A model generated the notes under the pieces. That model ran no database searches. It worked only from the letters and a program-made list of their open reading frames with translations, and was not told the DNA's origin. A DNA stretch of 64,000 nucleotides, taken from Utricularia gibba (Eukaryota; Streptophyta; Magnoliopsida; Lamiales; Lentibulariaceae). Both the position numbers and the translations under genes were made by a program. Each line of letters begins with the position of its first letter. Positions within the stretch are counted from its first letter, which is position 1. The stretch covers positions 1,674,001-1,738,000 of the forward strand of contig NEEC01000004.1 in NCBI GenBank assembly GCA_002189035.1, in the 5' to 3' direction. Of this stretch, positions 1,543-55,294 are shown in pieces.

Positions 1543-2656
1543 ATGCCCAAGGTTCCCTTCAAACTCCATCACCTCTGGGTAGGGTTCCGTTTTTTAGTAA
1601 TTTTCGATCTTATGCTTGTTAACGCTGTTCCCTTCATCCTGCAATGAATTGGCTTTCACTTTTAGACGTTTCTTGTGTGATAGTCCCCATTTTCACGGGT
1701 GTCTCTGAGCTTAAGGGAGTAAGTGGTAGCTTCAATTTGTGATTCGGATATGCATGTGTTGTATTTTCTAATCAAGTTTAAGTATGGTGTATCCTGTGCT
1801 AGTCTTCTTTTTGCATATGCATCTGAGATTAGGGGTTCCGTAATTTGTGATTTGTGCTCCATTTTGTGATTTGGACCCGTGTGTTCATTTTAACCTTGAG
1901 ACTTTAATGCTGTAGTTGCATCCAAAGTTCTTTAGCGTGTACTGGAATTGAAAATACGTGCGTTGAACTAACTTTCAATGCTGATCTTCTAAAGAAACAT
2001 CTCGTTGCTGTGTTGCAGTTTGTTCTTTTCTTTCGCAAATCATGTTTTGATTACCAATCAGCATTTCTTCGTTGTCTCGCAGAGACAAGGCAGGCTGAAG
2101 CTGCTCGCATCAGGCAGAAGTATCCAGATAGAATTCCAGTATAAGATTAATGCATCATCAGCATCAGTTCCTTTGATTGTGACTGAGACTTTTAATGTTA
2201 CCTGCAACTCTTTTTTATTCCAGATCATCGTTGAGAAGGCAATAAAAGGGGAGGTCTCTGATATCGAAAACAGGAAGTGAGCCATAATAACCTGAATGAA
2301 CTTCAACTGATCATCCCAAACCGCTTCAGTAATCTCAATGCTTCTGGTGTTCATTTGCAGATACCTTGTACCTGCTGATTTAACTGTCGTGCAGTTTGTT
2401 TATCTGATCCGAAAGCAGATTATAACTCCAGACGCGGAGAAAGCAATCTTTCTCTTCGTCAATAACATGCTACCCCCATCTGGTGAGTGGTTCTTATAAC
2501 CTATGAAGCTTAAGCATGCCACACCCCTGAATCAAATCTACTTGTTTCTGCTCAGGTTCCTTGATGTCTGCACTTTACGATGAGTACAAAGACAAGGATG
2601 GATTCCTCTACGTGTCGTACAGTACAGAGACCATGTTCGGTTCCAGTAAGGCTTGA
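1543..2656 (+). CDS. ATG8: ATG8-family autophagy ubiquitin-like protein
   Basis: ATG8 is the ubiquitin-like protein conjugated to phosphatidylethanolamine on autophagosome membranes, where it recruits cargo receptors. Exons as read are 1543-1578, 2085-2138, 2224-2276, 2361-2482 and 2556-2656, giving about 121 residues, a normal length. The product has the N-terminal MPKVPFKL start, the motif [11 protein letters not shown], then [28 protein letters not shown] and [15 protein letters not shown]. It ends in MFG followed by SSKA, so an ATG4 protease would have to expose the glycine. Resemblance is closer to plant clade I (ATG8a-g) than to ATG8h/i. Two points are odd. TVGQ is TVVQ. The exon 1/2 junction reads HHLW-TRQ where the family has HPLE-RRQ. 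One extra C in the CC at 1572-1573, together with the acceptor before 2083, restores HPLETRQ, so a missing base is likely. Confidence 0.93.
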
Positions 2657-2882
2657 TAATTCTAGTATAGCTATTGTCCATTGCTTCCCTTCTGTATGCT
2701 TGCTTGCTTCCTCTGTTAGATGCCCCATAAGCCTGTGTTTGTTTCTTGTAATTCGATCTACATGTTATTCATAGCAAACTGATTTCTTTGCTGAATAGTG
2801 GAGTCTGTTACAAATTCCCATACTAAAGATGCAATACAACAACGCCAATGTAGAGCTCTGCATCACAAATCAACATCAAAGG

Positions 2883-3110
2883 TCACTCCGTGGCGGAAGT
2901 GGTCTTCTTCTTGAACTTGCTTTTCAGCCACTTGATTCCCTTCGATGGTCCTTTCCCAAGTCTTTGTAAACCAGCCATGGCCCCGCCGGACTGAGACGCA
3001 GGGGCTGCAGCCGCCTTTTCCCCCGCCGTACCTTCATTCTTCGCATCCGGGATCGTACCAAATCCTCCCTCCCCCCATTGATCCGCCCAGCTCGTGCCCT
3101 CTGCAGCCAT
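2883..3110 (-). CDS. Small plant protein with WADQWG motif, unknown function
   Basis: This is a single-exon frame of 75 residues. It starts MAAEGTSWADQWGEGGFG, continues with a low-complexity Ala/Gly/Ser middle, and ends in a basic segment, SKGIKWLKSKFKKK. Small plant proteins with an N-terminal WADQWG-type box and a basic GIxWxKxKxxKK tail form a conserved but uncharacterised family, and I place it there from memory of that pattern. There is no signal peptide or membrane segment. Its 3' end faces the 3' end of the ATG8 gene across about 225 bases, and its start is 272 bases from the divergent NUDT23-like start. I do not assign a function. Confidence 0.7.
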   Translation of the reverse strand: MAAEGTSWADQWGEGGFGTIPDAKNEGTAGEKAAAAPASQSGGAMAGLQRLGKGPSKGIKWLKSKFKKKTTSATE

Positions 3111-3382
3111 TGTTGATCAGTTCGCCGGAAAACAGACAGGGCGGTCGGAGTTATGCAGAAGGCGGAGAGACTTGAGGGAAGAGGAAGGGATCAGTTGGGT
3201 AAGGTGTACTTGACATGAAAACAGCTACATGCCAACTCATTATTTTCTTTTTATTATTACAGCCCATGGGCCACACACGTATGGGCTTGTTCTATAAACA
3301 TTTTGTTGTATTGATAGCGACGGCGGATTGCTTGAATGTTGAACAAATCTTCCTTCATTCGTCTGATTGATATGCTGCTAGA

Positions 3383-52649: not shown

Positions 52650-52682
52650 CACGTGATCAGTCAAGAATGGGGACTATATATA
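52650..52682 (+). promoter_or_regulatory. G-box and TATA box of the inositol transporter gene
   Basis: CACGTG at 52650-52655 is followed 20 bases later by TATATATA at 52675-52682. This lies about 350 bases before the ATG at 53032, a distance explained by the probable leader intron. G-boxes bind bZIP and bHLH factors, often linked to light or ABA control. Confidence 0.5.
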
Positions 52683-53031
52683 GCGATGATAGCTCAAGAC
52701 ATCACTCACAAGAGCCCTCTTTTGTTGGGAATCAACCGGAAGGGGAGCAGAACGAGGACTGTCTCTGAGAAGGGTATGCTTTCGTCACCTACGATTATAT
52801 CGACCCTTTATTTAGCAGCAATCGCTTCTCTGTTTTGATGGATCTCTTGGAATCGTGAAAGGGTTTGTGGGTTATTTTTCTTCATTGGGACAGCACCTAT
52901 TTGCCTGTAAAGTTTCTCTTTTTATGGTGTTTGTTTTGGGAAATCGGTGATTGGTCTTTTTGATAGAGAATGGGTTCTTTTGGGTCTAAAACTTACAACA
53001 AAAAAAGGGTGGTTTCGTACAGGTTTTTGAA

Positions 53032-55294
53032 ATGGAGGGTGGGGTGGTAAACTGGATAAAACAGAGTTCACGGACTGCTGCAGAACGTCGTTTCGGAGTC
53101 CGTACATCATGCAATTGGCATTAACTGCAGGGATTGGAGGTCTCTTGTTTGGTTATGACACAGGTGCAAGGCATCACCCTTTTTCTTGTGCTTATTCGGC
53201 ACTGTAAAGATCGTTTCTTGTTTTTCTTTAATTGTTCTGTTGACAAAATGATGAATCAGAATTCGGTTCCTATTTTACTACCGCGTTTGAATCCCATCGG
53301 TTTATAGGGCAAAACTTATCCATTGTTGAGAAGCCACTGAAATATTTGGTTTGCTGTCCTGTTTGTTAATCAGGTGTTATTTCTGGAGCTCTTCTCTACA
53401 TCAAAGATGACTTCAAATCTGTATACAATGACACCGTGTTGCAGGCATGTTTCCATGATTTACACAGGTTTCTTCCATGGTTTCTGTGTGGCTAAAACTT
53501 GCCTCGTGGAAACAGGAAACAATTGTCAGTATGGCGGTGGCCGGAGCTATCATCGGAGCCGCTTTTGGTGGCGCTATAAATGACAAGTACGGAAGAAAAA
53601 AAGCCATTCTTTTAGCGGATACGTTGTTCTTTATTGGAGCAGTGATCATGGCTGCTTCTATGTACCCCTGGATGATCATCGTGGGGAGGATATTCGTCGG
53701 CCTCGGAGTCGGAATGGCATCCATGACATCGCCTCTTTACATATCTGAAGCCTCGCCTGCTCGAATTCGAGGTGCACTGGTTAGCACCAATGGCTTGCTC
53801 ATCACCGGGGGTCAGTTCCTGGCGTACCTGATCAACCTTGGATTCACCAAGGTGACTGAACTTTAGAGCCCATCAACATTCTGGTTTTCTTGTTGGCGTT
53901 TAATGGACGCGGCGTGCATTTTCTTAGGCTCCAGGAACATGGCGATGGATGCTTGGAGTCGCTGGGATTCCAGCACTGGTTCAGTTCTTCTTGATGCTCT
54001 TCCTCCCTGAGTCTCCTCGATGGCTCTATCGTCAAGTACATGGAAGCTAATTCAGCACTGCGTAGCTTAGTTTTGAGTTGCTGTTAGCTGAGTTTTTCAT
54101 GGTGAACACTGAACAGGGAAAAGTAGATGAAGCGAGGGCGATATTGGAGAGAATCTATCCACCGGAGGAAGTTGAAGACGAGATGTCTGCGTTGCATTCC
54201 TCGATTGAAGCTGAGAAAGCAGACGAGGGGTTCATCGGAAACAGTATAATCTCAAAGCTGAAAACCATATGGGGGAACGTTGTCGTTCGCCGAGGCCTCT
54301 ACGCTGGGGTAACTGTCCAGGTTGCTCAACAGTTCGTTGGGATAAACACGGTGATGTACTACAGCCCCACCATCGTTCAGCTCGCCGGATTTGCCTCAAA
54401 TAAGACGGCGATAGCCCTGTCGCTCATCACCTCCGGCCTCAACGCCATTGGCTCCATTGTTAGCATGGCTTTTGTGGATCGTTTTGGCCGGAGAAGACTC
54501 ATGCTTATATCCATGGTGGGAATTATAGTCTGTCTTGTTGCTCTATCAGTAACTTTCTTCCAGGCAAATATCCACGCGCCGCCTGTCTCCGCCGTGGAAT
54601 CTCTCCAATTCGGTACAAACTCCACCTGCTCCAGTTTCCTTCAGGCGAATCAACCTACATCGTGGAATTGTATGAGTTGCCTTAAGGCCTCCTCCGACTG
54701 CGGTTTCTGCACTAACGGAAACGGAAATGTAAGTGCCGGGAATCACCTCTTGTTGCTTATTACATCAACATCCCTCCATTGAATACACTTACATTTTCCG
54801 AACAGTATCTCCCCGGAGCATGCCTGGAGTCAACAAAGCTGGTACGCGACGCTTGCCGTTCGGAGCACCGTACATGGTACACAGAGGGGTGTCCCAGCAA
54901 ATTCGGGCCATTAGCGGTGGTTTTCATGGCGCTGTACATCATGTCCTATTCCCCCGGCATGGGAACCGCGCCGTGGATTGTGAACTCCGAAATATACCCC
55001 TTGAGGTACCGCGGGATCGGGGGTGGCATCGCAGCCGTATCGAACTGGATGTCGAATCTCATCGTCAGCCAGAGTTTTCTTTCACTGACCAAGGCAGTCG
55101 GCTCCGCCGGAACTTTCTTACTTTTCGCCGGATTCTCCGCCATCGGGATGGTGTTTATATACTTCCTGGTGCCGGAGACGAAGGGATTGCAGTTCGAGGA
55201 GGTGGAGAAGATGCTGGAGAAAGGGTTCAGGCCTCCTCTCTGTTGTTGCAGTAAGAAAGAAAATGGAGAAGACGATGAAGTAATTGTCAAGTAG
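53032..55294 (+). CDS. Inositol/H+ symporter, INT2/INT4-like (frame broken in exon 1)
   Basis: INT proteins are major-facilitator inositol/H+ symporters; INT2 and INT4 types sit in the plasma membrane and INT1 in the tonoplast. Exons are 53032-53163, 53374-53444, 53516-53851, 53928-54035, 54117-54728 and 54806-55294. Sugar-porter motifs are [103 protein letters not shown] and [16 protein letters not shown]. Between helices 9 and 10 lies a Cys-rich loop ([35 protein letters not shown]), which marks INT2-4 and not INT1. The N-terminal MEGGVV shifts out of frame at the AAA 53049-53051; one extra A restores a 582-residue protein. Translation from the in-frame ATG at 53109 is another option. Exon 2 is followed by a GC donor. 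Confidence 0.92.
53445..53515 (+). other. GC-AG intron in the inositol transporter gene
   Basis: Exon 2 ends GTGTTGCAG and the intron begins gcatgt, ending aacag before GAAACAATTGTC. The nearest GT would put the next exon out of frame. The joined protein reads [16 protein letters not shown], as in homologues. Confidence 0.87.

Follow-up and report, generated by a model that had tools for sequence, protein, structure and literature searches.

Frame breaks in five neighbouring Utricularia gibba genes very probably reflect undercalled G or C runs in the assembly

Run-length errors are a described feature of long-read consensus sequences. In Streptomyces albus SM254, assembled with HGAP and Quiver, 205 indels, nearly all of them in G or C homopolymers, were left in place until Illumina polishing (PMC4832174). 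An HGAP assembly of Plasmodium falciparum differed from the reference by far more indels than substitutions, again mostly at homopolymers (PMC5964635), and gene-fragmenting errors in long-read assemblies are discussed in the Kastor paper (PMC12007338, citing Watson and Warr 2019). Utricularia gibba is on record as an HGAP assembly at 88x (PMC5793159), and we infer that the assembly analyzed here (100.1 Mb, 516 contigs) is this PacBio HGAP assembly.

The window, that is, the whole stretch of 64,000 nucleotides that was analyzed, comprises bases 1,674,001–1,738,000 of contig C413. Its frame breaks, and those that we found elsewhere in the assembly, share features with each of these systems. Similar to S. 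albus SM254, the indels lie nearly all at G or C homopolymers; however, the rate in S. albus was far lower (205 in 7.17 Mb, with deeper coverage at 262x), only losses were seen here, and the platform here is a presumed one. Deletions in homopolymers some 2–8 bases long, through which intact genes appear frameshifted, also characterize the cases in the Kastor paper (PMC12007338), but these come mainly from nanopore bacterial assemblies and include insertions, whereas here we observed deletions only, with a bias to G/C runs. By contrast with the P. falciparum assembly, where the genome is AT-rich and long homopolymers are the ones chiefly affected, the runs here are short G/C runs of 3–7.

Six frame breaks in the window

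A preliminary description had reported six one-base frame breaks in five genes of the window. Three-frame reading of the six sites confirmed every break at its reported place; in each case, the family protein resumes in the frame given by one additional base, and the breaks go beyond what reading by chance would produce. The genes read within the window are plant genes, and comprise the five broken genes and two in-window controls:

ATG8 gene, 1543–2658, plus strand; frame break at CC 1572–1573 in exon 1 (1543–1578); further exons at 2083–2138, 2224–2276, 2361–2482, and 2556 to ~2658 share one frame
Leucyl-tRNA synthetase gene (control), 18520–23655, plus strand; no break in 18380–19400 and 20600–23700 by three-frame reading
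SHOU4-like gene, 26996–29555 (ends approximate), minus strand; breaks at 29475–29478 (site 1, coding AA or CC) and 27123–27125 (site 2, coding CCC) by three-frame reading
Cytochrome P450 gene (control), 31950–35440 (ends approximate), minus strand; no frame break by three-frame reading
TDT copy 1 (TDT1), a DASS/SLC13-type carboxylate transporter, 43509–46003 (3' end approximate), plus strand; break at GGGGG 43585–43589 in exon 1; matches Na_sulph_symp PF00939
TDT copy 2 (TDT2), 47849–49913 (ends approximate), plus strand; break at CCCC 49703–49706 in exon 5; matches PF00939/PF03600
INT, an inositol-type transporter of the Sugar_tr family, 53033–55291 (3' end approximate), plus strand; break within 53037–53055, near the start codon; matches PF00083

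The SHOU4-like gene had no hit above the family cut-off in a curated-family search; its name, which is presumably apt, follows the preliminary description. The names TDT and INT likewise follow that description and are presumably right, in keeping with the Pfam matches.

The breaks in ATG8, at SHOU4 site 2, and in TDT2 are unambiguous. Exon 1 of ATG8 measures 36 nt, where 37 nt are needed, since exon 2 opens with bases two and three of a codon; in three ATG8 paralogues at other loci of the genome, exon 1 ends in F-K-(L/V)-E-H-P-L and then G|GT, which is the phase required here. SHOU4 site 2, a GGG on the plus strand that reads CCC in the coding direction, separates G-V-V-R-R-Q-E-N-M-L-M-I-V from P-P-E-A-V-S-T-G. 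The break in TDT2 falls inside a conserved motif of 12 residues that is unbroken in TDT1.

The other three breaks, those at SHOU4 site 1, in TDT1, and in INT, are close to the start codon, and there family conservation carries less weight. Exon 1 of TDT1 is 449 nt long and 450 nt are needed to join exon 2 in phase, so that here, as in ATG8, the added base fits the splice phase, as had been proposed. A search for further copies of the TDT1 region, which might have had the longer run, returned only the gene itself, TDT2 (75–77% identity), and short weak matches. The frame of INT downstream of the break encodes transporter sequence.

The homopolymers to which the preliminary description had assigned the breaks all exist, but its two SHOU4 entries were given in swapped order (AA belongs to 29475 and CCC to 27123), and its A runs, AA at 29475 and AAA at 53049, are possible placements that a neighbouring C or G run fits equally well. 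At SHOU4 site 1, the coding CC at 29477–29478 gives residues identical to those obtained with AA, and in INT either GGGG (53041–53044) or GG (53054–53055) is as good a placement as AAA. Because losses genome-wide are biased to G/C runs (see below), these runs are the better candidates at both sites, and the two A-run assignments are probably misplaced.

Two further observations concern the genes themselves. The ATG8 of the window is a divergent copy, with a tail of S-S-K-A after the terminal F-G (2640–2658) and V-V-Q where other members have V-G-Q. An intron of INT, from 53446 to ~53516, has an apparent GC start and would be of the GC-AG type.

Losses at G and C runs across the assembly

If the assembly undercalls runs, then the same lesion is expected in unrelated conserved genes elsewhere. 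We therefore searched the genome with Pfam profiles of long-exon families (HSP70, GRAS, KCS, HSP90, and cellulose synthase) for junctions, defined as adjacent matches to one gene that differ in frame across a gap too short for an intron. Clean one-base offsets at these junctions comprised 20 losses and no gains. The junctions are not confined to one locus but are spread over many contigs, in HSP70, GRAS, KCS, UGT, and HSP90 genes, and one type of lesion recurs in the highly conserved HSP70, HSP90, GRAS, and KCS families.

Stretches of ~100 bases around 29 junctions, together with 30 UGT loci, were then read base by base. In all 25 unambiguous cases, a G or C run is short by one base, and in none is the base lost from an A or T run. 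This count leaves out L085, L055, and L086/L087, where two runs fit, as well as L090–L092 and L109–L111, which are unclear and may be true decay. One more loss, at L100, turned GG into G. A further apparent GRAS break (L108) was dropped as a real short intron. The restriction to G/C runs does not follow from the abundance of such runs: in 33.4 kb of intact coding sequence, A/T runs of at least three bases outnumber G/C runs (942 versus 770).

The true lengths of the 25 affected runs were three (3 cases), four (7), five (4), six (5), and seven (6). Intact coding sequence (33.4 kb) contained no G/C run of seven at all, whereas six breaks fall in such runs. The frequency of loss thus climbs steeply with run length, although rates derived from this comparison are rough, since the intact set was selected for being intact. 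We noted a recurrent hot spot in the GRAS family, where the codons for R-P-G-G-P-P, rich in G/C runs, are broken at the same place in several paralogues (L097–L101); this recurrence marks a sequence-driven error. Separately, in the window and other loci (237 kb), G/C runs of at least seven are very rare, with four against 35 of length six, whereas A/T runs keep a long tail. This scarcity is what undercalling would yield outside genes too.

In total, ~27 clean losses were found in ~152 kb of matched coding sequence (HSP70, GRAS, KCS, and ~40 kb in the 30 UGT loci), or one per 5–6 kb. At this rate, and with the coding sequence of the window roughly estimated at 15–20 kb, 2.8–3.7 breaks are expected, and the probability of six or more is 0.06–0.17. 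The cluster of five broken neighbours is therefore unremarkable, and we rejected the idea that six breaks set this window apart. The unbroken P450 and leucyl-tRNA synthetase genes, in the parts read, agree with the same rate. What the genome-wide reading adds to the preliminary description is that the error extends across the genome, is confined to G/C runs, and depends steeply on their length.

A probable assembly error and its consequences

We consider it about 95% probable that the breaks are a sequencing or assembly error, namely the undercalling of G/C runs by a long-read assembly, and that the genes are intact in the plant. The missing base would then be absent from the reads or from the output of the consensus caller, not from the DNA, and the consensus would be one base short at each site. 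Undercalling of G or C runs would be systematic, with a chance of loss that, by rough estimate, may be low for a run of three, common at six, and near universal at seven. Spread over the whole assembly at about one loss per 5–6 kb of conserved coding sequence, such an error would lead one to expect several broken genes in any gene-rich 64 kb window. An error of this kind is already known and is biologically ordinary.

The result is hence one of data quality, not of biology, and serves as a practical warning to users of the assembly. If roughly one break per 5–6 kb of conserved coding sequence holds over ~30,000 genes, several thousand of them might be wrongly shortened, split, or called pseudogenes, and tallies of lost genes and contracted families would then be biased in a genome that is used for the study of genome shrinkage. 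The error can be spotted by a simple rule: it is to be suspected wherever a gene that otherwise retains the sequence of its family lacks one base at a G/C run.

Other readings of the breaks

For INT, SHOU4 site 1, and TDT1, an alternative is that no base is missing and that translation begins at a downstream ATG, or that another splice form is used. INT does have an in-frame ATG within I-M-Q-L-A-L, and in SHOU4 the break is followed by M-G-P-R-T-V. However, family-like sequence also seems to lie upstream of the break in both genes, and the good frame of TDT1 has no ATG before N-M-L-G, a start that would cost the protein its first membrane segment. We regard this reading as unlikely for these sites, and it gives no account of ATG8, SHOU4 site 2, and TDT2.

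Far less probable is that some or all of the genes are real and recent pseudogenes, each produced by a one-base deletion through replication slippage. Slippage, too, favours homopolymers, the genome of the species is reduced and has lost genes, and at least some of its broken genes are real: that DCL3 of U. gibba is truncated was confirmed both from transcripts and with 5' RACE (PMC8333044). Decay, however, would bring stops, gains, and larger indels, whereas the sites read are one-base losses only, with 20 losses and no gains among the clean offsets; nor would it explain why G/C runs alone are hit though A/T runs are commoner, or why core chaperones and many other families are broken at one rate genome-wide. 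Moreover, the relaxed selection expected of pseudogenes is not seen in the TDT pair, the one pair on which selection beyond a break was measured. Over 446 codons, every one of which lies downstream of the break in TDT1, the two copies have a dN/dS of 0.14 (dS ~1.07); over the 39 codons beyond the TDT2 break, dN/dS is 0.12. Both the excess of losses and this continuing constraint favour systematic undercalling over decay, as the preliminary description had proposed. The two TDT genes (43509–49913) are an old tandem pair, with dS ~1.07, under constraint.

A comparably slight chance attaches to the idea that run lengths at the breaks are truly polymorphic by one base and that the assembler picked one allele or mixed them. 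The assembly does contain near-duplicate contigs. Part of C412 recurs almost unchanged as C316 (38 kb), and the stretches compared differ by three substitutions and by two one-base run lengths (CCC versus CCCC and G versus GG), C316 being the shorter in both. The CCC/CCCC difference adjoins a GRAS domain whose open frame extends over 615 aa on C412 but over 412 aa on C316. These run differences fit undercalling, but the sample is small and they could be allelic. By contrast, the HSP70 break of C304 is also found, identically, on its near-duplicate C241, as would be expected of a systematic error; the two contigs diverge after ~1 kb, so that comparison outside the HSP70 gene is uninformative. 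A random choice of alleles would yield neither 20 losses without a gain nor a restriction to G/C runs. Least probable of all is that the runs are truly one base short in the DNA and that polymerase slippage on G/C runs brings the transcripts back into frame, which would have the nucleus tolerate thousands of frameshifted genes.

As a side observation on the assembly itself, parts of large contigs occur a second time, nearly unchanged, as two small ones of 31 and 38 kb, and some of its sequence is thus redundant or recently duplicated.
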